The notes beneath the pieces are model-generated. The model did no database searches, was not told where the DNA came from, and was given only the letters and a program-made list of their open reading frames with translations. Below, piece after piece: positions 49,640-64,000 of a DNA stretch of 64,000 nucleotides. Positions within the stretch are counted from its first letter, which is position 1. The number at the start of each line of letters is the position of its first letter. Source of the stretch: Hymenobacter roseosalivarius DSM 11622 (GTDB lineage: Bacteria > Bacteroidota > Bacteroidia > Cytophagales > Hymenobacteraceae); contig NZ_FWWW01000058.1 in the NCBI RefSeq assembly GCF_900176135.1, forward strand, positions 1 to 64,000, in the 5' to 3' direction. The position numbers and the translations under genes are program-made.

Positions 49640-50629
49640 TCAAAGGGTGGGAACAAGTTTTGAGCTAAAATCGGCTTGATACGGTACGCCTGATTTGACG
49701 ATGGCGAAGGCCTGCTTGAGCAGCTTGTTGCACACGGCAATTAGCGCCAGCTTCTTGTTCTTGCCCTTGGCCACCAGTCGGTCGAAAAGCGCCTGGCAGG
49801 CCGCATTCGTTTTCTTAGCGGAGAAGCTGCACATGAACAACCTACCGCGAATTAGCCCACCGCCCATTTTAGTAATGCGCACCTTGCCGCAGATGCTGGT
49901 GCCCGACGTGTGTTCACGGGGCGACAAGCCGGCCATGGCAATCAACTGGCGGTAGTTGTCGAGGTGGGTGAAGCCCCCGGCAAAGAGCAGCAGCATGCCC
50001 GCTGTCTTGCGCCCGATACCGGGAATGGAGCATAGCAGCGTCATCTCGGCGGCAAAGCGCTGTTCTAACAGGACCAGCAGTTCGGCCCCCACGGCCTCCA
50101 CTTGTTTCGTTAAGGTCTTGCGCATTTGCTGTAGGCGTTTTAACGCGCGTTTGCTGATGATCGGTTGGCGCTGGAGCGCTTCGAGAGCATTGCTAACCAT
50201 GGTTTTTTGCTTCAGCAGCTGCTCGCTCACCTGTTCGAGTTGCCGGCACTCGACCAGTACCGTTTCATCGGGTTGCCAGACGTTAACCGGTTGTTGCTGG
50301 CCATAGCGTAGCAGCCACTGGGCATCTTTGCGGTCACTTTTGCCTTTGCTCAGATACATCTGAATGAAGCGCTTAATGACCAATGGATTGAGCACGGCTA
50401 CCTGCCCGCCCTGCTCGTGCAGATAGTAGGCCAGGGCCAAATTATAGGTGCCGGTGGCTTCCAGCACAAACCGGCAGTGCGCCCCGCAGGTCTTCACCAG
50501 CTGCTGAAAGCCGGCTTTGCTGTTGCTTACCTCCAGGTGCTTTAGTTGGTCATCCAAGTGGTAACAGACGGCCAGCGTGGCTTTGCTCACGTCAATGCCA
50601 ACAACAGGAAAAGGCGATGGGGAGTCCAT
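49640..50629 (-). CDS. IS110-family transposase
   Basis: A complete 329-residue recombinase. The DEDD (RuvC-like) domain has V-G-I-D-V-S-K near residue 10-16, F-V-L-E-A-T-G-T near 54-61 and S-D-R-K-D-A-Q near 97-103. The Transposase_20 domain has I-P-G-I-G-R-K-T-A and H-T-S-G-T-S with the candidate catalytic Ser. The reading frame is unbroken, so the element may be mobile. Enzymes of this family use a bridge RNA to choose donor and target. Confidence 0.93.
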   Translation of the reverse strand: MDSPSPFPVVGIDVSKATLAVCYHLDDQLKHLEVSNSKAGFQQLVKTCGAHCRFVLEATGTYNLALAYYLHEQGGQVAVLNPLVIKRFIQMYLSKGKSDRKDAQWLLRYGQQQPVNVWQPDETVLVECRQLEQVSEQLLKQKTMVSNALEALQRQPIISKRALKRLQQMRKTLTKQVEAVGAELLVLLEQRFAAEMTLLCSIPGIGRKTAGMLLLFAGGFTHLDNYRQLIAMAGLSPREHTSGTSICGKVRITKMGGGLIRGRLFMCSFSAKKTNAACQALFDRLVAKGKNKKLALIAVCNKLLKQAFAIVKSGVPYQADFSSKLVPTL

Positions 50630-50850
50630 AGTGGGGCAGGTTGAAGTGGAGGAAACGAGTGAAAAGGACTTCCAGGGAATCTTCTATTATCCTGATACAG
50701 GCTCTGCGGCCTCACGGAACTGTCCAAAGTAGCCCTAGAAAAGAGAGGGGATTGTCCTGTTAAACGAGCTCGTAATGGCCCCATAATCGATGAATCTTAC
50801 TCCTCCCTTTTCCTTCTCAACAGCACCCCTTACGGGGCACAGGCAAACAT
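50630..50850 (-). ncRNA. Probable IS110 bridge RNA region
   Basis: This gene-free stretch between the transposase start and the element's end is where IS110-group elements encode the RNA that pairs with donor and target DNA. The position and length suit the family. I did not resolve the target- and donor-binding loops, so the call rests on location. Confidence 0.45.
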
Positions 50851-50883
50851 AGAATTACGGTAAACATATAGAACGCTGATTAA

Positions 50884-51086
50884 GGGGTTCTTCTTCCAAA
50901 CGGGTGGATTTACACGCTAAGCAATTAATCACTTGATTTATTGCTTATTGGCAACGATATACGCCTAGCACACCCTCTGGATTGCTTGGAATCGCCCTTT
51001 TTACAGGCGTTTTAGACCCGCCCTTTCTGCTAAAGTACTGCTGGAGGGCTTAGCGTGTAAATCCGCCCGTTTGGAAGAAGAACCCC
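50884..51086. mobile_element. MITE, copy 2 (203 bp)
   Basis: Terminal inverted repeats of about 34 bases (50884-50917 and 51053-51086) begin GGGGTTCTTCTTCC and match those of the copy at 32330-32566. The inner sequence shares blocks but is about 34 bases shorter. No coding potential. It lies 32 bases beyond the IS110. Confidence 0.8.
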
Positions 51087-51667
51087 GTCCAGTAAGGCCT
51101 GTTGGGGATGTCGGCTTAAATTGCTGGCTCCTTCAATGGGGCAATTAATGTGATAAACTCAGCCATTGTCCCCTAGATGGTTGTGTAATCCTTACCTGTC
51201 AGGGGGCGTGTTGGGCAGATAGTTTGGAAGCGTCATACCCAAAAATGAGAAGTGGCCTTGCTCAAAGTGTAACATACTGCCCAGCGCTCAAGAAGGTCTA
51301 AAACTTATTCCTATGTGGTCTGAGAAGCGGTCCTATAATACCTTCTATGTTCACTTGGGTAGGCAACGCTTTACGTCGGCTCAAAGGTTGGCTCCGGCAC
51401 ATGCTATTCACCATTGGTGCCCCAGTGCCAAGGGGAGCGCCTCAGCTAAGTGGTTCACTCCGTCGGGCGGAGATCGCTCAGCATAGCGAAAGTTTCAAGT
51501 TAAGGAGGAACCCTCTTAAGAGCTTACGCCCGGTTCCGGTAGGTAGCGACGAGCGGCAACTGCTCCGTCTCGGATTAGGCGACCAGGTATGGCCGCGAGC
51601 GGCGGCGGCTGACCTGCCGGCTTAGGCACTGGCCTGCGCTTCCCCGCGCCCCCAACCTGGTTCCCAT
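51087..51667. other. Gene-free region
   Basis: About 580 bases without a supported gene. A plus-strand frame at 51347-51625 has an ATG but no family resemblance and an unusual composition, so it is not called. No repeat or RNA gene was recognised. Confidence 0.35.
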
Positions 51668-52709
51668 TTACCCGTTCGGCGCGCGCAGGGCCGCGCTCAC
51701 GGCTTCCAGCCGGCGGACCAGCTCCTCGTTGCTGGGGAAGAACGCCCTGAGTTCGGTGGGCAGCGTATCGGTCAGCGTGTAGGTAGCCACCCCGATGGGT
51801 TTGTTGACGTCGCGCAGGGCAAACTCCACGACCGTGCGCTGCTTGCTGCTGCCGACAATAATGCCGATGCTGGGCTGCTCATGGGGTTTGCGGACCTGCT
51901 CGTTGAGTAAGGAGAGATAGAAATTCATCTTGCCGGCGTACTCGGGCCGGAAGTCGGTGATCTTCAGCTCCACGGCTACCAGGCACTGCAGGCTGCGGTG
52001 GTAGAGCAGCAGGTCAAGGAAGTATTCGGTGTCCGCCAGCTCCAGCCGGTACTGGTTGCCGATGAAGCTGAAGTCCCCGCCCATCTCCTGTAAGAAGCGC
52101 CGCACGTTGCCCAGCAGCGCCTGCTCGAGTTCGTACTCGGAATGTTCGGCCGTTAATGCCAGAAAGCCAAAGGTGTATTCGTCTTTCAGGGCTAAGGCCG
52201 CCTGCTCTACGCGCGGTGCGGGGAGCGTGGTGGGGAAGTTGTGCTGGGCCAGCACCGTCTGCTGGTAGGTCTGCGCTTTCAGTTGCTGGGCCAGCACGGT
52301 TTTGGTCCAGGCCTGGCGCTGCGTTTGGATGGTATAAAAGTAGCGCTCCTGCGGGTCCTTGCAGCGGGCCATGATCAGCAGGTGCTTGGCCCAGCTGATT
52401 ATCTCCAACCAGCGGTTGGAGTAGTTCGCTGGCACTGTATTCCAAATAGAACTGGCGCATATACCACAGGTTCTGCACGGAAAAGCCACTCACGCCCACA
52501 AACTCGGTCTGTAGGTCGCGGGCTAGCGTCTCGACCACGGCTTTGCCCCAGCCCTGCTGCTGTTGGCGCTCGGCAATGAGCTGGCCCAGGTCCCAGTAGA
52601 GCTGCATCTGTTCGCGGTTGACCTGTTGCAAGGCCCGGTACTGGGCCGCGCGCACCCGATGTTTGAGGGCGGTGAGCAATTGGGCATAGTCGGAAGGGAG
52701 CGAAGTCAT
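51668..52709 (-). pseudogene. YhcG/DUF1016 PDDEXK nuclease-family gene, frameshifted
   Basis: From ATG 52709 the DUF1016 N-terminal domain is clear (V-N-R-E-Q-M-Q-L-Y-W-D-L-G-Q-L-I-A-E, G-F-S-V-Q-N-L-W-Y-M-R-Q-F-Y). Near 52405 the frame is lost and the rest is read in another frame to 51668: E-I-I-S-W-A-K-H, then F-L-D-L-L-L-Y-H and V-A-V-E-L-K-I-T-D-F, the PD-(D/E)xK core. One missing base explains the join. Such proteins occur in defence and mobile islands. A sequencing error is possible because both halves are well kept. Confidence 0.75.
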
Positions 52710-52944
52710 ACACACAAGCAGGAGGCACGAGGGAAGGCATGGGGGCGAAAGCCCGACAACAAAGAAAACGGAATCCAAACAAAGGCCCACCGGCTACACG
52801 CCCGGTGGGGCGTCGAAGAAGAGAGGCGCTGCTCAACGGAGGAGGGAGCGCTTGTGCGAGAGAAAGCGATACTCGGGTGGCACTTACGTATTGCCCAATC
52901 TTCCTGCAGTCGAACAGCCTGTACACACTGGTGTCACATTTGTT

Positions 52945-54580
52945 AAACGGTGGTGGCTGTTGCAGAACTCGCCGCCTGTTCAAGCTAGCTATTGCTTCTG
53001 CGGTGCTTTCGTGCATTTACGCCAGATGCGCAGCCAGTAGCGTGACCTGACGGGTGGTGCTGGTGGCGGCATCGGTAGTACCACGGCCATACCCAACTGC
53101 TGCTTGGGCTGGTAACGTAGGAGCTTTTTCAGGTTGTAGGCGACGGCGGCTAACAACATGGATTTGTGCGCTCCAGCTTGGCCCCGTACGTTAATGCGGC
53201 GCAGGCCGTAGTGATGCAGTAAGTTGCCAAACACGGGTTCGATGGTGCATTGACGGACCCGGCGCATGTGCTGGCCTTGCCGGCTGCGCTGCCGGTGCCA
53301 AGCGCGGCTGTAGGCCGCATCAAAGGCCGAGCGTACCAATTGCTTGTGATCCATATAGGGTACACAAGTCGCTTTGAAGGCACAGTGCTGACAATCCTGG
53401 TAGAACGCTCGGTAGTGTTTGGTCCAGTTGCCATCTGCCGTCGGTCGGTACTTGCGAAACGGGAGCGGTTTGTCTGCTTGACAGCGGTATTCATCGGCTA
53501 GCGCGTGGTAGGTGAAGCCTGCTGCTTCGGGCTTATAGCGGCCAAACACGGGAATCCAGGGTGTTATACCGCTGTTTTCGAGCAAGGCATAGTTGAAGCC
53601 ATTGGAATAACCTGTGTCAGCTATCAGGTCTCGTAGCCGTAGCTCATTCGCCGCTAAGCGTTGTTGTAGTTGCTGCACGAGGCCCGGCAAGTGCAGGCTG
53701 TCGCGCGAGTCGGCAAAGTCGGCTTGTACATGGCTGATGACGCCCTGGGCCGTATCCACCGCCATACTGCAGCGATAGTTCAGGGCACGCGCTTTGCCCG
53801 GTTTGATGGAGATACGCGCCTCGGGATCGGTCGGACTATAGTGGGTTTTGTTGCTCAACAAGGGCGCTTTTGCGTGGTTGGCTCCTACCGAACCAGGCTG
53901 CTGGTGACGCTTGGCTTGGCGCGCCGCCTCGTAGCGGAGTTGATGGGCCGGCGCCGAGAAACGAGCAGCCGCCGGCGGGGCGAGCGCGGGTTCGTGGTCG
54001 ACCACCGTCAAGCTCGGCACCAGGGCGTGCACCGACTGCTTTTCGCACACGCTATCCAGCGACGCATTGGCTTTCACGGGCGCCGAGTCCAGGGCTTGCG
54101 TATCACCGGCCACCAAGCCCTGCTGCACGCAGAGGCGGAAGACCCGATCGAAAAGGTGCTCGAACAGCGCCGCGGGATACAGCTGCCGCGTGCGGCTCAG
54201 CGTGGAGTGCCACGGTAAGGCTTCGTCTATTTCGTAGCCCAGAAAGTAGAGCAGGTCTAAACGCAGGGCACAGTGCTCCAGCAGGCGGCGGTCGCTGGTG
54301 ATATTTTCCAGATAGCCCACCAACACTAGCTTAAAGAATACCACTGGATCGAGGGAAGGCTGGCCCGTATGGCTGTAGAGATCCTGCGTGGCTTCATATC
54401 ATATAAGAAGTGCAGGTCCTGTAGCTCGTCAAGTCGGCGGTAGAGGTTATGCGCGGGCACCCGCTCCGAGAGCCGGAAGTGGGTGACGACCTGATCGGTA
54501 AATTGCTTCTTGCCTTGCATCTTCTCTCTACGAGAGCAGCCAATTGCAGGCTACCACTTCTGCAACAGCCACGTCCGTTT
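52945..54580 (-). mobile_element. IS1182-family insertion sequence
   Basis: Terminal inverted repeats share a perfect 15-base core (52953-52967 and 54558-54572, GTGGCTGTTGCAGAA) and extend to about 23 bases with two mismatches (ends near 52945 and 54580). They enclose one frameshifted transposase gene. No target duplication was identified. Confidence 0.8.
52989..54520 (-). pseudogene. IS1182 transposase broken by a 5-bp duplication
   Basis: The start (M-Q-G-K-K-Q-F-T-D-Q-V-V-T-H-F) lies in one frame to about 54395. The rest (S-H-T-G-Q-P-S-L-D-P-V-V-F-F-K, later D-T-G-Y-S-N-G and the C-terminal E-P-V-F-G-N-L) is in another. At the join the minus strand reads TATGATATGA, a tandem copy of TATGA. 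Removing one copy restores L-Y-E-A-T-Q-D-L-Y. The DDE catalytic domain is otherwise complete, so the damage is recent. Confidence 0.85.
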
Positions 54581-54641
54581 GGAAAATGATACAGCAGAAT
54601 TTGAGTAGGTTTGAGCACTACTCTTGACTGCCCGCTCACCC

Positions 54642-55295
54642 ATGCCCAACTACGTTGCCTACTACCGTGTCAGTACTGCCCGCCAAGGCCTCAGTGGCCT
54701 GGGCCTGGAAGCCCAGCAGGCGGCCGTGCGTACCTTCTTAGCGCCGAGTGAGCAGATCCTCGCGGAATACATTGAAGTGGAGAGCGGACGGAAGAATAGT
54801 CGGCCTCAACTACAAGCCGCCATGCAGGCGGCCAAAGAGGCGGGGGCGGTGCTGCTGGTGGCCAAGCTCGACCGGCTGGCCCGCAACCTGGCCTTTCTCT
54901 CGGCCCTGATGGAAAGCCGGGTGCGCTTCAAGGCGGTGGACATGCCCGCGGCCGATGAGCTTACCATCCACGTCTTGGGGGCTGTGGCCGAGAAGGAAGC
55001 GAAGGCCATCTCCACCCGGACCAAAGATGCGCTGGCGGCCAAGAAAGCGCGCGGGCATCAGCTGGGCACGCCCGCCAACCTGACGGCCGAAGCTCGTCTC
55101 AAAGGCCAGCAGCAGCGGCAAGTGAATGCCCAGACGAGTCTAGCGAACCGGTAGGCGGCCGACCTCGCGCGCCTGTACCGCAGTCTGCACTGGGACTACT
55201 GGCGCATTGCCACCCAGCTCACGGCCTCCGGGTATCGCACCCGTCGGGGGTGTCACTTCACCGCCGCCGGCGTCCGGCGCCTTGTCCTGCGCTAA
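54642..55295 (+). pseudogene. Serine recombinase (resolvase/invertase) with one in-frame TAG
   Basis: The catalytic domain is complete: Y-Y-R-V-S-T-A-R-Q with the nucleophilic Ser near residue 10, L-D-R-L-A-R-N near 78, and E-K-E-A-K-A-I-S-T-R-T. TAG at 55152-55154 follows S-L-A-N-R, but the same frame continues 46 codons (A-A-D-L-A-R-L-Y-R, G-Y-R-T-R-R-G) to TAA 55293-55295, giving the usual C-terminal HTH. Homologues have Gln at the TAG site. The truncated protein would lack DNA binding. Called a pseudogene, though readthrough cannot be excluded. Confidence 0.75.
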
Positions 55296-55992: not shown

Positions 55993-57669
55993 CTATGGTA
56001 CCGCCGCCGGGAGCAGAAGCGGTGCGAGGAGCAGGTAGCCGCGAGCCAGGTGCGTAAAGGCTGCGACCTGCTGCTGCTGCCAGCGCTCATCGTGCCCTAG
56101 TTCCGCTGCCAGCAGCGCCGCTACTGTGGGGGCCATCCGGATAGCGGCCTTTGCGTCGAGGAACAGCACCCGCACCCGGCGGGCTAGCACGTCTTCTACG
56201 GTGCGGGCCATCTCGTAGCGCGCCGCCCAGACCACCTCGGCCTGGAGGAATTCGAGCTTCTCGTCCAGCTTTCCGCCCAAGGTAGGCTGGAGCTGAATTA
56301 ACTCGAGTAGGGCGGGCTGGTCGCTGCCGTACACCGAGAGGTGATGGCGGCGGTCAGACGTGGCCAAGGCGCCGTGAATGGGCAAGGTCGCCGTTTGGCT
56401 AGCAGCCGGCACGAGCTTGCCCAAGCTGATGGCTGTATCCACCGTGTCCTGGCCCATGCGGCGGTACGTCGTCCACTTGCCCCCCGTAATGGTGATTAGG
56501 CTCGTTTCCGAAACCAGAATCTTGTGAGAGCGCGAGATTTCCTTGGTTTTCTGCGAGCTGCCTTGCGGCGCCGCCAGCGGCCGCAGCCCGGCAAATACGC
56601 TCCGCACGTCGCTGCGCTGCGGGGCACGAGTGAGGTAACGGGCGGCCGTGCGCAGTAGGAAGGCAATTTCAGCCTCCTGGGCGCGCGGCTCGGCGCTGGT
56701 CTCGTTCACCGGCGTATCCGTCGTTCCCAGCAGCACGCGCCCCTGCCAGGGCATGGCAAAGAGCACGCGCCCGTCGTCCGTGCGGGGAATCAGCAGCGCG
56801 GCCTCGCCGGGCATAAAGGACTGATCCAGCACCAAATGCACCCCCTGGCTGGGGCGCACCAGCTTCGGGACTCCGGGCTGGTCCAGCTGCCGTATTTCGT
56901 CGACAAAGATGCCGGTAGCATTGACCACGACGGTACCCCGCACCTCATAGCGACGGCCTGTTTCCTCGTCAGTGGCCCGCACGCCGCACACGCTGCCCTG
57001 CTCATCTTTGAGCAGGCCGCGCACGGCGCAGTGGTTGAGCAGCGTACCGCCGAGCTCCACGGCTGTTTGCGCCAGATTGATGGCTAGGCGGGCATCGTCA
57101 AACTGCCCGTCGTGGTAGAGCACCCCGCCTTGTAAGCCGTCGGCCTGGAGGTTGCCTACCCGCTGTAGCGTTTCCTGTTTGCTCAGCTGCCGGGCGGCTC
57201 CCAGGCTGTGCTTGCCGGCCAGCAGGTCATACAGGGTCAGGCCGAGCGTGTAGAATGCGTGGCTCCACCACGAGTAGGTCGGAATAATAAAGGCCTGGTT
57301 CAACACCAGGTGCGGGGCGTTGCGCAGCAGCAGGCCGCGCTCAACCAGCGCCTCGCGCACCAACCCCACCTCGCCCTGGGCCAGGTAGCGCACGCCGCCG
57401 TGCACCAGCTTGGTGCTACGGCTGCTCGTGCCTTTGGCGTAGTCCTCCTGCTCGAGTAAGAGCGTCTTATAGCCCCGGCTGAGGCTGTCGAGGGCCACTC
57501 CGAGTCCGGTTGCCCCACCCCCAATGACAATCACATCCCAGGGGGGCTGGCTCGCTAGGCGGGCCAGCAGCGTCGCGCGGGTAAACGCGGCCGCGCGGAG
57601 GGCGGTCTGCCGAGCATTCGTTTGCTCGGGCTGTGATGGTTTGAAAAAGACACTCGTTTGGGGACGCAC
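55993..57669 (-). CDS. glpD: Aerobic glycerol-3-phosphate dehydrogenase
   Basis: A 558-residue FAD enzyme oxidising glycerol-3-phosphate to dihydroxyacetone phosphate and feeding electrons to quinone at the inner membrane. The FAD-binding V-I-G-G-G-A-T-G-L-G is at about residues 47-56. K-L-V-H-G-G-V-R-Y-L and T-I-T-G-G-K-W-T-T-Y-R are diagnostic for the GlpD family, and the DAO_C domain is present at the end. The ATG at 57669 gives a short N-terminal extension. It ends in TAG, showing that TAG works as a normal stop here. Confidence 0.93.
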   Translation of the reverse strand: MRPQTSVFFKPSQPEQTNARQTALRAAAFTRATLLARLASQPPWDVIVIGGGATGLGVALDSLSRGYKTLLLEQEDYAKGTSSRSTKLVHGGVRYLAQGEVGLVREALVERGLLLRNAPHLVLNQAFIIPTYSWWSHAFYTLGLTLYDLLAGKHSLGAARQLSKQETLQRVGNLQADGLQGGVLYHDGQFDDARLAINLAQTAVELGGTLLNHCAVRGLLKDEQGSVCGVRATDEETGRRYEVRGTVVVNATGIFVDEIRQLDQPGVPKLVRPSQGVHLVLDQSFMPGEAALLIPRTDDGRVLFAMPWQGRVLLGTTDTPVNETSAEPRAQEAEIAFLLRTAARYLTRAPQRSDVRSVFAGLRPLAAPQGSSQKTKEISRSHKILVSETSLITITGGKWTTYRRMGQDTVDTAISLGKLVPAASQTATLPIHGALATSDRRHHLSVYGSDQPALLELIQLQPTLGGKLDEKLEFLQAEVVWAARYEMARTVEDVLARRVRVLFLDAKAAIRMAPTVAALLAAELGHDERWQQQQVAAFTHLARGYLLLAPLLLPAAVP

Positions 57670-57681
57670 TAGGATACCGGT

Positions 57682-57975
57682 TTAAAGATGGTATGTCGGG
57701 GGGTATACACCAAGAGCCCCAGTAGGGCGAGCAACCCCGTCCGCAGCCCCAAGCCATCGCCCGCCCGAGGTTGTGGTAAACCAATAATACACATTTGCCG
57801 GGGGGAGCACCATCGACGCGAAGTCCAGCAAAAAGGCGAAGCGCCTCGACTTTAACCTCGTGGGTTTCCGTGTCCCCTCACAGGCCGGGCAGCGAAAGAC
57901 AGGCAGATGGTTGGCTGGGCTCGTTTGCCACCGGGTAAAGCGCTGGTGGCACCGGAGGCAGGTAGCGGGCGGCAT
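57682..57975 (-). CDS. Small zinc-ribbon protein, possibly frameshifted
   Basis: The 97-residue frame starts M-P-P-A-T-C-L-R-C-H and has a second C-P-A-C pair, forming a C4 zinc ribbon, then a hydrophobic segment (F-A-F-L-L-D-F-A-S-M-V-L). After about residue 70 the frame looks poor, whereas a neighbouring frame gives a good membrane helix (L-R-T-G-L-L-A-L-L-G-L-L-V-Y-T). A one-base slip near 57765 would give a normal membrane protein. It stops 12 bases upstream of glpD. Function unknown. Confidence 0.5.
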   Translation of the reverse strand: MPPATCLRCHQRFTRWQTSPANHLPVFRCPACEGTRKPTRLKSRRFAFLLDFASMVLPPANVYYWFTTTSGGRWLGAADGVARPTGALGVYPPTYHL

Positions 57976-58382
57976 AGCAACCGAGCAGGAGGGGGGCTAG
58001 TAGGTGAATGGACACGGAAAAGGTACACTGTTGGCAATTTGCCTAGCTCTAATAGTCATACAATTGCCGCATCCAAGCGACTCAGGCGAGTCGCCCCTGA
58101 CGCTTGGAGCAGGCTGCCCCCTTGCGTCAGCCGCCCAAATATGATAATAAGGTGCTAAAAGGGAGGATTAGCTAGCTGTCTCGCGGACTCGGCAGGTGGG
58201 TATACGAGAGCAGGGCTATCATTTCTTAAAGGAAGAATCCATAAAGTTTATAATCATCCAACTAATGTAATTTTTTAAATAATTATTTTAACTCATAAAT
58301 TTTTATGTTAAATGAAATGTTCGTAAATTAGTATAGCAGCTGCAACAAATATTTTTTCACTCAACACTTAACACTTACCAAA
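57976..58382. other. Upstream region of the peptide cluster
   Basis: No gene is seen. From about 58220 to 58380 the DNA is very AT-rich and should hold the promoter of the precursor gene, but no clear Bacteroidota -33/-7 pair could be fixed. Like most genes here, the precursor lacks a Shine-Dalgarno site. Confidence 0.4.
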
Positions 58383-58559
58383 ATGATCACGTTAGAAAAT
58401 CTTGTATCCGACCTGCAAATGACGCACGTCGATTTAGTAGTAGGTGGAACCTTTCCTCCATGCGGCAGCAACAGTAACAGCCGCAGCAAAAAAAACAAGC
58501 GCAGCAAAAAAAACAAGCGCAGTCATTCTAGGAGCCGGAGCAATAGCTGCGGCTGCTAG
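58383..58559 (+). CDS. Double-glycine precursor peptide with a Ser/Lys/Arg-rich core
   Basis: A 58-codon gene (ATG 58383, TAG 58557-58559). The leader M-I-T-L-E-N-L-V-S-D-L-Q then D-L-V-V-G-G is a typical double-glycine export leader. The predicted 36-residue core has T-F-P-P-C at its start, ten Ser, six Lys and five Arg, two tandem S-K-K-N-K-R units and an S-R-S-R-S-N-S stretch ending in C-G-C. The core is strongly basic, with three Cys. Downstream genes supply a kinase, a C39-peptidase exporter, an adaptor and an outer-membrane channel. This supports a ribosomally made, modified and exported peptide. It resembles no RiPP core I can name. Confidence 0.8.
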   Translation: MITLENLVSDLQMTHVDLVVGGTFPPCGSNSNSRSKKNKRSKKNKRSHSRSRSNSCGC

Positions 58560-58571
58560 TAAGCTAAGATT

Positions 58572-58612
58572 ATGCAATACAATCTAGGATAGAATATAGG
58601 AATGTATTGCAT
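58572..58612 (+). promoter_or_regulatory. Stem-loop after the precursor gene
   Basis: A perfect 10-bp stem (58572-58581 with 58603-58612) starts 12 bases after the precursor stop. It has no T tail and may stabilise the short message. Confidence 0.55.
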
Positions 58613-58620
58613 TAATTAAA

Positions 58621-58670
58621 CAAAAGCTGGAAAAGCGGTATCCATTCTGTTTTTCCAGCTTTTGGTTTCT
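58621..58670 (+). terminator. Terminator/attenuator after the precursor gene
   Basis: A 14-bp stem (58621-58634 with 58651-58664) with a 16-base loop and a short T-rich tail. It lies before the kinase gene, so it can give much precursor message and less readthrough into the enzyme and export genes. That ratio is the common need of peptide clusters. Confidence 0.75.
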
Positions 58671-58894
58671 TACATGTTGGCTATTTGAGTAGGGACTTAA
58701 TTCTGTGCCTCTGTACTATGCTAAGCCTTAAGAGTAAAATCAGATACAGGTACTGCACCTCAAACTGAGTTTGTAGTAACCGTGGCGATATGACTTGGAA
58801 TTGAGGCTCACCTCCCTACTTACCAAGATACAGCTCGATCAAGCTATTGATGCTTGCCCCGCTATTCCCACAATATTTTCAATCTTATGCTATC

Positions 58895-60061
58895 ATGACA
58901 GCCCGACGATTTTACCTTTCAAAAGGGGTAAGCGTGCATGAGCACAATGATAATTTCTACATTGAAACTATCACAGAGGAGTTTAAAATCAATCGGACAA
59001 TTGCCACCTTCCTAGGGCTATTAAATGAACCTAAAACGCCTCAGGAACTTGTACAGGGATTACAAGACCTAACACAGGGCGCAAGTACTGATGTCATTGA
59101 GCCTTTGGTTTCTAAGTTCCTTAAAGACATGTACCGGCTTGAGGTTGTGCGTAAGGAAGGGGATACAGATATAGTGGCTTTAACCCCAAATTACCAATCT
59201 GGGGCACAAATTGGCCAATACCTTATTACCGATTTATTGTCCCAGCATAATCGATATGTACAGCTCTACCGGGCCACTGACTGCGAATCTGGTGAATTGG
59301 TGGTACTGAAAATGTTTTCCTATTCACTGGAGAGCATAGGCAATGATACCCGTCTGGCGAAGGGCTTTCGGCAGTTCCAGCAAGAGTTTGATATTATGCG
59401 TGCGCTGCCTGCTCACCCGAACATTTGCGCCCTAAAAGCCTATCATACGGAGCCATATCCTTACGCCGTCCTAGAATATCTGCTAGGCAAATCGTTGTCC
59501 GAATGCGCACAGCATGACACTATCATCGAGGACAGCAAAGCCCATTTAGCCACTCAGATTCTGTCATCATTAGCCCACATCCACGCTAATGGAATTGTGC
59601 ATGGCGATATTCACTCCCACAATTTTATGGTGAATGCAGATCATGTTACCATGATTGACTTTGGTTTCTCGTACCGGGTTGGCGTCTCAGAGCAAGAGCA
59701 GCATATCAATTGTGGCGGAGTACCAACTTATCTGGCGCCAGAACGCATCAAGCAGCACAATTATGACTTCAGTAAGCAGGCAGCCGATTTCCGGGCGGAA
59801 GTCTATCAAATAGCACTCGTGCTTTTCAAGCTCTATTATAAAGAATTGCCATTTGATGGGGAAACCTGGCTAGAACGTGCTGCCTCTATCACCACCTATG
59901 ATTTTGGCCAACATCTAAGCCCCTCTGTTCCCCATGAGGCGGTGTTGGTGCGCGCACTACAGAAAGGCCCTAACGAGCGGTATGCATCCGGCCAAGAACT
60001 ACTGGCATCGTGGCAGCAAGCCATAGACATCGAAAGTTCGGTGGTAGTGGAGTCAAGATAG
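58895..60061 (+). CDS. PqqD/RRE-like domain fused to a protein kinase
   Basis: About 388 residues from the ATG at 58895; upstream starts at 58847/58850 add 15-16 residues. Residues 1-100 (F-Y-L-S-K-G-V-S-V, L-L-N-E-P-K-T-P-Q-E-L-V) look like a PqqD-type winged helix, the fold that binds RiPP leaders. A protein kinase follows: Lys 139 in V-L-K-M-F, H-G-D-I-H-S-H-N near 236-243, D-F-G at 255-257 and Y-L-A-P-E-R. H-G-D in place of H-R-D is also typical of the kinase part of class III/IV lanthipeptide synthetases. It probably phosphorylates Ser of the precursor. No lyase or cyclase domain is present. Confidence 0.8.
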   Translation: MTARRFYLSKGVSVHEHNDNFYIETITEEFKINRTIATFLGLLNEPKTPQELVQGLQDLTQGASTDVIEPLVSKFLKDMYRLEVVRKEGDTDIVALTPNYQSGAQIGQYLITDLLSQHNRYVQLYRATDCESGELVVLKMFSYSLESIGNDTRLAKGFRQFQQEFDIMRALPAHPNICALKAYHTEPYPYAVLEYLLGKSLSECAQHDTIIEDSKAHLATQILSSLAHIHANGIVHGDIHSHNFMVNADHVTMIDFGFSYRVGVSEQEQHINCGGVPTYLAPERIKQHNYDFSKQAADFRAEVYQIALVLFKLYYKELPFDGETWLERAASITTYDFGQHLSPSVPHEAVLVRALQKGPNERYASGQELLASWQQAIDIESSVVVESR

Positions 60062-60123
60062 ACTCTCAACGAAAGCACCCCTAAGCTACATGCTGCACAC
60101 CAGCCTATTCCACCCTGATTCCT

Positions 60124-62523
60124 ATGGTAGACTGTCAACTAAAGAACAATGACTGCGGCATAAGCGCAGTTAAAACCATCTTTAATATTTTCGATCAGGA
60201 CGTTAGTCGAAAGTATATACAGCAGAACATCTTTTTAGATGAGAAGGGCTCAAGCCTAACCGATCTACAGAATTTCCTGCAGCGGCATGAGTTTGCCACA
60301 AACCTGCGTGTACTCGATATAAATGCTATTCAATTCAAGCCTTCTGCCTGGCAGGAGCTGTTTCCTTTTATCATGCCTATCGTGCACGCCAATGGTCTGC
60401 ACTATGTGGTAGTGGATAAAATGAAAAGCTCTAAGCTGCGGGTGCTCGATCCGGCAAAAGCGAATGAGTATTATGTGACAGTATCTGAACTGAAGAAGAT
60501 GGCCTACTTCAGCAAGAGCTATTGGGACCTGATTCAAATGGAGCAAAAGTTAATGCTGCTCTGTACCCAAGAACTGGCCCTCTACAGCGTCAAGCTTGAA
60601 CAAGCGCTAACTACCAATGACGCTAGCACACTATTTAATAAGCTCACGTACTTCACCTATCTCAAAGAGAACTTTGGGTTGAGGGACAAAGAGGCTGAGC
60701 AAAAATTTTTACACGATCTTCTTTTTAATCAGGATGCCGGTGCACTGCCCAAGCATTTTCGGTCGCTCAAGGATGCTGAAACCCGCATGATGCTTCAGGC
60801 GCCCATCATATTAACAGTCGCGCTGAAGCCATCCAAGCCGCGGCCCGAAGAGGTACTACCCGATGCAGCTAAGCCCGAACAAAGTCCCTATCTAACTCTG
60901 CTACAAGAACTTGGTCGCAATCGCCAAATTTGGTACATCTACATTTTCGCGGCGCTATTTTCTGCAATGACAGCCCAATTGGCTGTATTCACCGGCCAAA
61001 TACTGATTGACTATATTCTGCCTTCTTACCAGCTGAATACGCTCGTTGTATTTGCTATTGGCCTAGGGGTATTCAAGCTCTTCGACCTGGCCACTAGTCT
61101 AAATGTGGCCTTTGTGGGTATCCACATGGGTAATATTCTGGACAAGTACTTTCTAACCCGCTTTGACGAGAAGCTAAATCAATACTCTCTTCCTTTTATT
61201 CAGTCCTTCAAGCGTGGAGACCTGACCGAAAGAATGAGCGATGCCTTCAAACTGAAGGGGTTTTTTTTGCGCTTTTTCACCAGAATCATTGTCGACGTAT
61301 TTGTATCGATCTACTCGCTCGCTATTCTCTTCTACATAAATGCTAAGCTTACCCTGATTGTCTGTGCCGTAATGGCGGCATTTTATGTGTGGTTTCGCTT
61401 GGTAACACCTACGCTCAAACGAAATGAGCGGTTGCGCTTTCTGCGTAAGTCTGAATTCTTCACGAAGATGATTGAAAAGCTGGATGGCATTCAAGTACTG
61501 AAGTCGTTCCGCATCGAAGAAACCTACTCGCGCAAACTACTGCAAATCGTGAATCAACTGCTTAACGTGCAGTTAACCAACAAGTACGTTGACCTAGTCA
61601 ACGTCGCAGTGATATCCGTCATCTCTCTGATAGCATCACTGCTGATCATCGTAGCATTAACCAAAACAGCTATTCAGTCTAATGCCATTTCGCTAGGACA
61701 AATCATTACCTACATAGCGCTATCCGAACGGGTATTTTCCGCATTGCGTGGTATTCTATCTGAGAACCTAACTCTGCAGGAAAATGAGGTAGTGCTCAGA
61801 CGTTATTTGGATTTTGAGGATGCTTCTGCCACTCGGCCGTCAACTGGTGGTATTGATAAGTTTACGATTACTAGTCTGGCTCTCCAAGATCTAGGATTTG
61901 GCTACAACCCTCAGAATCTAGTTCTGCATGACGTTTCATTAGAGGCTGAACTCGGCGATAAAATCCGCATAGAAGGACAGAATGGTTCAGGAAAAACCAC
62001 CCTGAGCAAAGTCCTGACGGGGCTTTATGAGCCAGCGTCTGGCCGGATGATGCTTAATGACACAGATCGACGATTCTTCGATCAGGAGAAAGTCAAGGAG
62101 AAGCTAGTGCTTGTTACCAACGAGGATATCCTATTTAATGATACCATCGAGTTTAACATCGCTTTTGGCCGCAAAGTATCGCCAACTCGCATCATGCAAA
62201 TGGCCAAAAAAATTGGTTTATATGATTTTATCGCTAGTAAAGAAGAGGGACTAGGCTTCCTCATCAATGAAAATGGCCGCAACCTGTCTACTGGTCAGCG
62301 CAAAAAGATTTTGCTATTACGCGGGCTTTTCTCCTCTGCTGACGTGCTAATTCTGGACGAAGTGCTTTCAGGAATTGACGCGGAATCGCGTGTTCAAATT
62401 GAAGGCTTACTGGATGAATTTACTAACAAAATTCTGATCGTGATTTCGCATGAGCCTATAGATTATATCCGTTTCACTAAGCACTACTACCTAGACCATG
62501 GAACATTCGTCGTACCAGCCTAA
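60124..62523 (+). CDS. Peptidase-containing ABC exporter (C39)
   Basis: A 799-residue inner-membrane exporter. The N-terminal C39 peptidase has Gln5, Cys11 (N-N-D-C-G), His93 (L-H-Y-V-V-V-D) and Asp109 (V-L-D-P), so it should cut after the double glycine. Five to six membrane helices span about residues 270-560. The nucleotide-binding domain has Walker A G-Q-N-G-S-G-K-T at 618-625, signature L-S-T-G-Q at 721-725, D-V-L-I-L-D-E at 740-746 and His776. All active positions are kept. It starts 62 bases after the kinase gene and overlaps the HlyD gene. Confidence 0.92.
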   Translation: MVDCQLKNNDCGISAVKTIFNIFDQDVSRKYIQQNIFLDEKGSSLTDLQNFLQRHEFATNLRVLDINAIQFKPSAWQELFPFIMPIVHANGLHYVVVDKMKSSKLRVLDPAKANEYYVTVSELKKMAYFSKSYWDLIQMEQKLMLLCTQELALYSVKLEQALTTNDASTLFNKLTYFTYLKENFGLRDKEAEQKFLHDLLFNQDAGALPKHFRSLKDAETRMMLQAPIILTVALKPSKPRPEEVLPDAAKPEQSPYLTLLQELGRNRQIWYIYIFAALFSAMTAQLAVFTGQILIDYILPSYQLNTLVVFAIGLGVFKLFDLATSLNVAFVGIHMGNILDKYFLTRFDEKLNQYSLPFIQSFKRGDLTERMSDAFKLKGFFLRFFTRIIVDVFVSIYSLAILFYINAKLTLIVCAVMAAFYVWFRLVTPTLKRNERLRFLRKSEFFTKMIEKLDGIQVLKSFRIEETYSRKLLQIVNQLLNVQLTNKYVDLVNVAVISVISLIASLLIIVALTKTAIQSNAISLGQIITYIALSERVFSALRGILSENLTLQENEVVLRRYLDFEDASATRPSTGGIDKFTITSLALQDLGFGYNPQNLVLHDVSLEAELGDKIRIEGQNGSGKTTLSKVLTGLYEPASGRMMLNDTDRRFFDQEKVKEKLVLVTNEDILFNDTIEFNIAFGRKVSPTRIMQMAKKIGLYDFIASKEEGLGFLINENGRNLSTGQRKKILLLRGLFSSADVLILDEVLSGIDAESRVQIEGLLDEFTNKILIVISHEPIDYIRFTKHYYLDHGTFVVPA

Positions 62524-63730
62524 TAATATAGCTATCAGGCTGATTAAGGTGTTTTGTGGCCTGCTGATCGGCTTTCTAGTCATCTTTCTTGGTTTATTAT
62601 TCTTCTTGCATATCAATGAGACCATTGATTTTAAAGAGGGAGAGATTTACTCTCGCAACCCACAATCCGTAATTCGTACGCCAACTGATGTACGTGTGCT
62701 GAAGGTGCTAGTGCAGGAAGGTGATAATGTTAGTCAGGGCGATACACTGTTCGTACTGGAAAACAAACGTGTAGAATATGACTATGCAACAACGCGGGAA
62801 GAAGTTGGGCTGACAGAAAACAAAATCGCTGTTGCCGAACGGATGTTAGCATACACACGGGAGCGACGCGCTACGTTGGAGCGTCTGCGCAATATCCAAG
62901 AACAGACCTACAACGCCGACCGCCAGCAAATTGAGCGCGAGATGCGCACGCTGGCCGCGGCAAGAGGTTATGCTGAACAGCAAAGTGCAATCAGTAAGGA
63001 TCAGTATCGAACCGACTCTCTTCTCTATGCCCAAAAGGCACTGTCCCGCCTCGAAGCTGTTGAATCGAAAAGCCGTAGCCTGCTCAAACGCAAGGAGGCG
63101 GCGGAGACACGCGCCTCCTATGAGGAGAAGCGTGCTCGTCTGACTAGTCTTTTACAGAATTACAAGCAGCAGATCACGACCCTAGACATTGATTTAAATT
63201 CGCTGCAACAAGACGAACAGGCGAAGCAGCGTGAATTGCTGGATCTGCGTTCTCAGCTTTCCAGCAAGCGTAACTCAGCAGTAGTATTAGGCGACGCGGC
63301 TAACCAACTAATTGTACGGGCACCAGTTGCGGGCAACGTTATTAATATATATAACGACCGACAAAAAACGGAACTGCTCGATCGAAATCAGCCCTTGGCA
63401 GTAATTGCCCCCCACCAAGAGCAATTCTACGCAAAGGTCATTTTGCCCGAGCGAGAACTGGCCTACGTACGACTCGGCCAGCCTGTGAATTTGAAGATTA
63501 ATGCCTATTACCACTACCAGTACGGGGCTATTCGCGGGCGGGTATCATTTATCTCACCATCGAATGTAAATGATCAGTTTTTTACCATCGTCCAACTAAC
63601 CGGCCGTCCTCGCTTTCCTCTCAAAGCTGGCTATAAGCTTAAAGGTGAGATAATTACTAATCAGTATACTCTACTCCGATACGGAGTGAAAAAGTTATTC
63701 GATAAAATCGACACCTACGATGCGGTCTAA
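62498..63730 (+). CDS. HlyD-family membrane fusion protein
   Basis: A 410-residue adaptor joining the inner-membrane exporter to the outer-membrane channel. There is one N-terminal membrane helix (I-K-V-F-C-G-L-L-I-G-F-L-V-I-F-L), a lipoyl half-motif (T-P-T-D-V-R-V-L-K-V), a long coiled coil (about residues 95-255, rich in R, E and Q), the second lipoyl half (R-A-P-V-A-G-N-V) and a beta-barrel end. It overlaps the exporter gene by 26 bases and the next gene by 11, so all are co-translated. Confidence 0.9.
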   Translation: MEHSSYQPNNIAIRLIKVFCGLLIGFLVIFLGLLFFLHINETIDFKEGEIYSRNPQSVIRTPTDVRVLKVLVQEGDNVSQGDTLFVLENKRVEYDYATTREEVGLTENKIAVAERMLAYTRERRATLERLRNIQEQTYNADRQQIEREMRTLAAARGYAEQQSAISKDQYRTDSLLYAQKALSRLEAVESKSRSLLKRKEAAETRASYEEKRARLTSLLQNYKQQITTLDIDLNSLQQDEQAKQRELLDLRSQLSSKRNSAVVLGDAANQLIVRAPVAGNVINIYNDRQKTELLDRNQPLAVIAPHQEQFYAKVILPERELAYVRLGQPVNLKINAYYHYQYGAIRGRVSFISPSNVNDQFFTIVQLTGRPRFPLKAGYKLKGEIITNQYTLLRYGVKKLFDKIDTYDAV

Positions 63731-64000
63731 TGGTTGGGCTTTTTTGGTCTTTATTGTGTTGCTCCTTATAGTCCGTCAGGGCAAAGGGCAGCAGGTGCTT
63801 CCCTATGAAGACTGCGTAAAACGGGCATTACAGCAGAACCTACTGATGAAAAGGGCGCTCCTCGACCTAGAAGCCTCTACTGTGCGTCTGAAGACTCAGA
63901 AAGCAGATATGTTGCCGAGGCTCAATGGCTCCTTGCGCAACAATAATTCCGTAGGCAGAAGTGTCGATCCACTAACGAATGAGTTTATCAACCGTAAGTT
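63720..64000 (+). CDS. TolC-family outer-membrane protein (partial)
   Basis: The ATG at 63720 opens a frame running off the window: a signal peptide (A-F-L-V-F-I-V-L-L-L-I-V), then Y-E-D-C-V-K-R-A-L-Q-Q-N and M-L-P-R-L-N-G-S, followed by G-R-S-V-D-P-L-T-N-E-F. These are the start and first periplasmic helix of TolC-like channels of type I export systems. It overlaps the HlyD gene by 11 bases and completes a three-part exporter. About 93 residues are visible. Confidence 0.85.
   Translation, partial: MRSNGWAFLVFIVLLLIVRQGKGQQVLPYEDCVKRALQQNLLMKRALLDLEASTVRLKTQKADMLPRLNGSLRNNNSVGRSVDPLTNEFINRK

Follow-up and report, generated by a model that had tools for sequence, protein, structure and literature searches.

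The RRE-kinase locus

The forward strand of contig NZ_FWWW01000058.1 from Hymenobacter roseosalivarius DSM 11622 (85,464 bases) carries a probable group of genes for a ribosomally synthesized and post-translationally modified peptide (RiPP). The window, i.e. the whole stretch of 64,000 nucleotides that was analysed, corresponds to contig positions 1-64000, and the neighbourhood of the cluster was inspected from 50000 to 76000. The cluster spans 58383-65048 and comprises, in this order on the + strand, a precursor gene with a double-glycine leader, a hairpin, a gene for an N-terminal RiPP recognition element (RRE) fused to a Ser/Thr protein kinase (the RRE-kinase), and genes for a C39 peptidase-ABC exporter, an HlyD-type protein and a TolC-type protein. 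These genes probably constitute a minimal RiPP cluster, the product of which would be a linear, multiply phosphorylated and secreted peptide made by a leader-guided kinase of eukaryotic type. The features are as follows:

58383..58559, + strand: precursor peptide, 58 amino acids (aa); leader, residues 1-22 (58383-58448, ending in VVGG); core, residues 23-58 (58449-58556)
58621..58664, + strand: hairpin of 18 pairs followed by a T-rich tail, between precursor and kinase; likely attenuator
58895..60061, + strand: RRE-kinase fusion, 388 aa, start codon ATG at 58895
58895..59164, + strand: N-terminal RRE (PqqD-like) domain, approximately residues 1-90, as judged from profile and model
59216..60049, + strand: Ser/Thr protein kinase domain, approximately residues 108-385, with catalytic K139, E164, H236-G-D238, N243 and D255
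60124..62523, + strand: C39 peptidase-ABC exporter, 799 aa, with catalytic C11, H93 and D109
62498..63730, + strand: HlyD-type membrane fusion protein, 410 aa (Pfam HlyD_3)
63720..64000, continuing to contig position 65048 (L002:6721-8049), + strand: TolC-type outer membrane protein, 442 aa in all (Pfam OEP)

The window proteins match the Pfam families Pkinase (E 3.8e-29), Peptidase_C39 (E 4.4e-16), ABC_membrane, ABC_tran, HlyD_3 and OEP. An earlier sequence-only reading of this DNA had named the same five genes in the same order and described them as tightly packed; the gene content and order are confirmed, and the packing holds for the kinase, exporter, HlyD and TolC genes but not for the precursor gene, which lies 335 nt ahead of the kinase with the hairpin in between. 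The same reading saw the kinase as the sole tailoring enzyme in view and left room for further enzymes beyond tolC. With the region now inspected on both sides, no further tailoring gene was seen between contig positions 50000 and 76000, nor any other evident RiPP gene past tolC. The five-gene set is found again in other genera and is thus more than a chance arrangement. Of 24 loci, 19 have a hairpin (10 or more pairs, no more than 1 mismatch) in the stretch separating the precursor gene from the kinase gene, against 1.6 expected from shuffled sequences; this hairpin probably lets the precursor be made in excess of the enzyme. An Rfam scan of 57600-64000 returned no family at gathering score.

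Recognition and kinase domains

Homologues were collected in part by an alignment-based pattern scan, the 112 matches of which fell into 42 loci, 18 with RRE-kinases (L074-L091) and 24 with other kinases (L092-L115); a scan of the genome contigs with a single protein as query gave no match. Altogether 26 RRE-kinase loci were compared (the window, L009, L010, L013, L014, L074-L091 and L116-L118), duplicate genomes being counted once. The locus L090 was left out of homologue alignments because its kinase and exporter frames are broken: on this metagenome contig both genes are split over several frames (L090:7172-10785), through either decay or sequencing error.

By profile and by model, the N-terminus of the kinase is an RRE, in agreement with the PqqD-like character first noticed in its sequence. 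Residues 30-82 of the window kinase match Pfam PqqD with an E-value of 0.0017 and 19.1 bits, which is sub-threshold (cut-off 23.4), and a PqqD match at E<=1 is found in 9/25 family members. A profile built from 23 N-terminal domains retrieved 14 PDB sequences at E<=1, with the lasso peptide RRE TfuB1 in first place (E 0.0044) and PqqD lower (E 0.65), while the remainder look unrelated. Since a structural search with the whole kinase gave only kinases in its best 50 rows, the domain was modelled alone (pLDDT 78). Its best structural match is TbiB1 with bound leader (E 8.1e-4, TM 0.70), followed by PqqD, ThcOx, the PbtF RRE, TigE, MibB, TruD, TfuB1 and MccB. We take 49 of the best 50 rows to be RiPP enzymes, in part by their titles; rank 49 is a methyltransferase. 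An RRE on or beside the modifying enzyme is a common, though not universal, feature of RiPP systems.

All 25 aligned full-length homologues match Pkinase (PF00069). The residues K139, E164, H236, D238 and D255 are invariant in the 25 sequences, N243 is kept in 24, and G257 is replaced by Asp in 5. With its catalytic residues intact, the kinase is predicted from sequence to be active. The kinase model is of good quality (pLDDT 90.7, pTM 0.85), and its best 50 structural matches are all Ser/Thr-type kinases, PknB included. Ratios of non-synonymous to synonymous substitution rates (dN/dS) of about 0.1-0.3 in five kinase pairs indicate purifying selection on the gene.

Precursor peptides

A search pattern resembling the leader located most of the precursors, and those of a few loci were recognised by eye. 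One lies upstream of the kinase in each of the 25 loci that could be assessed; the exception is L080, where the contig begins 92 bases ahead of the kinase open reading frame (ORF). The L091 precursor is identical to that of L082 and was counted once in tests on 24 peptides. The 18 main-clade leaders share the consensus MITLEKxxxELKxxxVNEIVGG, and the window leader matches the leader profile with an E-value of 8.0e-11. Across 18 loci, leaders share a mean pairwise identity of 0.56 and cores one of 0.21, so that a gene with a conserved leader and a variable core adjoins a candidate modifying enzyme, as is general for RiPPs. One precursor pair gave dN 0.14 and dS 0.25.

The window core is rich in Ser, Arg and Lys, with 3 Cys residues and an SRSRS run. 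Cores as a whole are of low complexity and mostly Ser/Thr-rich, with repeats such as TKTKTK, SSESSD and KSGKSG in other loci. The Ser+Thr fraction of the 24 cores ranges from 0.14 to 0.73 (median 0.30), compared with 0.11 in leaders and 0.13 in a control set of 2554 30-residue windows taken across 16 loci (95th percentile 0.27), figures computed with the L085 and L118 cores cut too early; the identity, motif and charge figures use the corrected cores. The control 95th percentile is exceeded by 15/24 cores (Mann-Whitney p 1.3e-13, related loci being treated as independent).

Distances between leaders correlate with those between RREs (0.77) and slightly more with those between kinase domains (0.82), and leader-RRE co-evolution is therefore not singled out. 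RRE charge and core charge are inversely related (rho -0.50, p 0.014, uncorrected), which may reflect relatedness of the loci.

Exporter and phylogenetic distribution

The exporter corresponds to type I: a catalytic C39 domain is fused to the ABC transporter, and HlyD and TolC accompany it. Its catalytic C, H and D, already read as intact in the window protein, are kept in 19/19 homologues. An exporter gene stands near the kinase in all 26 loci, downstream in 22 and divergent in four (L081, L085, L087 and L118); in L080 it lies 1.7 kb from the kinase and is truncated where the contig ends. Over 19 loci, exporter distances follow kinase distances with r 0.94, as expected of a unit travelling together. 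The sequence-only reading had proposed a search of genomes for kinases co-occurring with double-glycine precursors and C39 exporters, and held that a precursor not conserved with the kinase in relatives would speak against a RiPP system; both partners accompany the kinase wherever they could be assessed.

The family is sparsely distributed. In a family-level sample the kinase occurs in 7/200 genomes, five of them of the window's genus. Among 120 genus genomes only 5 have full-length matches to the leader profile (E<=3.3e-9; the match ranked after them, at E 0.018, is partial), and these are the five that carry the kinase in the 200-genome sample; at least 3 of the 120 genomes lie outside that sample, and the profile was partly built from the five. 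At the order level (390 genomes) the exporter profile matches 4 genomes at E<=1e-150, the same four that have a main-clade kinase, defined by a match beginning at profile position 24 or earlier; a fifth order genome, G433, has a diverged kinase and exporter. At the phylum level (395 genomes) the exporter was found at E<=1e-120 in the window genome and in three further genomes, which belong to a different genus within its class. Exporters thus exist apart from the kinase, i.e. RRE-kinases come with the exporter and not the reverse. In the three genomes, all of one genus, exporter, HlyD and TolC genes occupy a shared chromosomal spot (L129:1539-6461, L130:1751-6673 and L131:1924-6846), and neither a kinase of the RRE-kinase family nor an evident precursor was found within the 14 kb examined. 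A plasmid search matched 197 records, 2 of which cover at least 80% of the query; the one match examined further, H1, is a LanC family protein.

Two loci belong to records titled Heimdallarchaeota and Williamsia metagenome bin (L080 and L089); the cluster is otherwise one of Bacteroidota, and binning errors are likely.

Proposed product and alternative explanations

The gene set, the RRE fold, the intact catalytic residues, the conserved leader, the co-occurrence and the hairpin are all read from sequence or from models. In the route that we propose, the RRE of the kinase would bind the conserved leader of the precursor and the fused kinase domain would phosphorylate several Ser/Thr residues of the core. 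As no lyase or cyclase follows, the phosphates would stay on the peptide. The C39 domain would then cut after Gly-Gly, and the ABC-HlyD-TolC assembly would move the peptide across both membranes.

Several observations weigh against this proposal. Four Spirosoma-type cores are not enriched in Ser/Thr (Ser+Thr 0.14, 0.15, 0.15 and 0.24). No basic-neighbour motif was detected, since 110/181 Ser/Thr residues in basic cores stand beside K/R/H and shuffled cores gave a mean of 103 and a maximum of 118; kinase-domain charge and core charge are likewise uncorrelated (rho -0.04, p 0.87). The exporter family occurs without kinase or visible precursor in 3/395 phylum genomes. The structural E-values for the RRE are modest, with 3 matches at E<=0.001, although the match list is consistent. 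Finally, the loci are related and the statistical tests are accordingly not independent.

The lack of a substrate motif in the cores would suit a regulatory kinase, the RRE of which senses free precursor so that the exporter or another protein is phosphorylated and the peptide leaves unmodified. The closest solved relatives are indeed ordinary bacterial Ser/Thr kinases, and in five loci a PP2C phosphatase gene follows tolC, as in signalling pairs. We nevertheless regard a regulatory role as improbable, because presenting precursors to modifying enzymes is the known function of RREs (PMC7470986) and because Ser/Thr-rich cores are hard to reconcile with it. It is also conceivable that the kinase phosphorylates the core and that a lyase, possibly with a cyclase, encoded elsewhere eliminates the phosphate and forms rings; the product would then resemble a lanthipeptide or contain dehydroamino acids. 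In class III/IV lanthipeptide synthetases the kinase domains are reported to act in this way (PMC10604976), the window kinase resembles the kinase regions of LanL and LanKC, and kinases with an RRE-like N-terminus and a LanC domain exist. However, neither a LANC_like nor a HopA1 (PF17914) protein was found in the genome (OspF-type lyases, LanB and LanM were not searched), and Cys is absent from 10/24 cores, which together make a lanthipeptide distinctly unlikely. A class III profile gave only three sub-threshold matches in the genome, at profile positions 236-404, which were taken as its kinase region.

Retained phosphates could alternatively prepare the peptide for a second step, for instance glycosylation or nucleotidyl transfer, catalysed by an enzyme whose gene lies elsewhere. 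Paeninodin-type and LPP clusters are described as pairing a kinase with a nucleoside triphosphate (NTP) transferase (PMC13381572). We consider a second step very unlikely here, given that no transferase gene was seen around the window cluster and that, in a comparison of 21 related loci, gene families outside the operon are common to at most 5. The kinase fold might also perform another transfer. Some kinase folds are known to carry out AMPylation or glutamylation; the canonical catalytic residues throughout the family make such an activity most improbable.

Retained phosphorylation of the exported peptide remains our preferred explanation. A bolder extension of it, possible in our opinion though doubtful, is that fusions of an RRE to a eukaryotic-type Ser/Thr kinase define an undescribed RiPP class, producing densely phosphorylated low-complexity secreted peptides in Bacteroidota; these may act outside the cell by binding metal ions or by templating minerals. 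The core composition seems reminiscent of silaffins (KSGKSG, SRSRS) and of casein or dentin phosphoprotein (SSESSD).

Relation to known systems

Two kinds of linear phosphorylated peptide have been described. The LPP (linear polyphosphorylated peptide) clusters of Bacillota give rise to linear products bearing several phosphates and rely on an HprK-like kinase together with an RRE that is a protein of its own (PMC13381572). According to that report they share with the present cluster RRE dependence, a dedicated kinase, an exporter and, if our reading is correct, a linear multi-phosphate product; peculiar to them are the HprK-like kinase, the discrete RRE, an SpI-type leader peptidase, an NTP transferase, an MsbA-like transporter and the placing of all phosphates on one Ser (PMC13381572). 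The present cluster has instead a eukaryotic-type kinase with a fused RRE, a C39 exporter, HlyD and TolC. It lacks an HprK-like kinase and a discrete RRE, and no SpI peptidase or NTP transferase was recognised by eye among the ORFs, no SpI or transferase profile having been run. No HprK family is among the 12 family matches listed for the window kinase. Phospeptin is reported to be a poly-phosphorylated linear peptide, inhibiting neutrophil elastase at a low micromolar level, whose sole maturase is a lanthipeptide-dehydratase-like enzyme that has lost the elimination activity (PMC9259500). Both systems combine a precursor and a sole maturase with a linear poly-phosphorylated product, predicted in our case; the phospeptin maturase is of LanM type, whereas that of the present cluster is a Pkinase-family protein with an RRE, and no LanM-type family appears among its Pfam matches or the best 25 of its 27 NCBIfam matches.

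With the class III synthetase ThurKC the RRE-kinase has in common a Ser/Thr kinase-like domain and, presumably, leader-dependent precursor phosphorylation. ThurKC additionally possesses lyase and cyclase domains, has no identifiable RRE and binds the leader helix through its kinase N-lobe (PMC10604976), while the enzyme described here consists of RRE and kinase only. According to the ThurKC study, the core enzymes of class II-V lanthipeptides are without an identifiable RRE (PMC10604976).

Assignment of the window protein to class III/IV lanthipeptide synthetases was rejected, as its 388 aa hold an RRE and a kinase, not a lyase-kinase-cyclase arrangement, and the genome has no LANC_like protein; the matches to NF038150 and NF038151 cover its kinase region alone and score far under their cut-offs. 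HopA1-like proteins have a role in class V lanthipeptides, and class V was rejected for want of a PF17914 match in the genome. No lanthipeptide synthetase adjoins the precursor; the presence of a complete one would, by the terms of the sequence-only reading, have overturned its proposal.

Kinases combined with LanC domains do occur elsewhere. LANC_like is paired with a kinase in 4/5 proteins scanned (L092, L094, L095 and L097), of about 790-900 aa, and a Paenibacillus peoriae plasmid protein (L132:7917-10319) is a kinase-LanC protein by annotation. The RRE profile matches the N-terminus of 3 of the 8 proteins tested (L095, L097 and L132). These three share with the window family matches to both its kinase and RRE profiles; they differ in the LANC_like domain (by annotation in L132) and, for L095 and L097, in a length of about 800-900 aa. 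A C39 exporter of the window family was looked for in L095 and L097 and found in neither. RRE-kinase-LanC proteins may be lanthipeptide-like synthetases in which an RRE replaces the lyase.

The earlier suggestion that a stand-alone RRE-kinase pairing is unlike any named RiPP class is supported as regards the enzyme, but the proposed chemistry has precedents in LPP (PMC13381572) and phospeptin (PMC9259500). The kind of product would thus be known already, and by inference the novelty would lie in the type of kinase, in the fusion of the RRE to it and in the use of a C39 exporter. No RRE-kinase RiPP was found in the open-licence literature searched, which does not prove its absence from print. 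A term search of the main text of the RRE-Finder paper did not return 'kinase'; the paper mentions RRE fusions to glycosyltransferase and glutathione S-transferase (PMC7470986).

If our proposal is correct, bacteria own at least three separately built routes to linear phosphorylated peptides, based on HprK-like, LanM-like and RRE-bearing eukaryotic-type kinases. An active kinase that a leader steers to its target, and whose natural substrates range from acidic Ser repeats to Lys-Thr repeats, would be useful for making phosphopeptides. Why these Bacteroidota should export phosphate-rich peptides is the question that would then arise.

Neighbouring genes

In the acidic-core loci L082, L084, L091, L116 and L117 the gene after tolC encodes a PP2C-like phosphatase (by Pfam for L082 and L117). 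Downstream of tolC in L084:15795-20454, L116:6737-9999 and L117:2-4170, the PP2C-like phosphatase is joined by a protein with long acidic runs (approximately 25 Asp in the L084 protein) and by a TPR protein with a CHAT domain, assigned by Pfam in L084, the counterparts in the other loci having been recognised by eye; this is possibly an extended cluster. Relatives of the acidic-run and TPR proteins are encoded near L083, L086, L088 and L090. Such neighbours suit a phosphopeptide working at the cell surface and prove nothing; the acidic-run lipoprotein-like protein and the phosphatase beside acidic-core clusters would fit a metal or mineral role.

Upstream of the window cluster, on the opposite strand, lies a gene for an FAD-dependent oxidoreductase with a glycerophosphate-oxidase C-terminal domain, and past the end of TolC (65048) a transposase and other ORFs follow, up to contig position 76000. 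The cluster is flanked by transposases and a resolvase (IS110 and DDE types), at 49640-55154 of the window (a resolvase and two transposases) and at L002:8403-10764. The presence of mobile-element genes on either side fits the scattered occurrence of the cluster within the genus.
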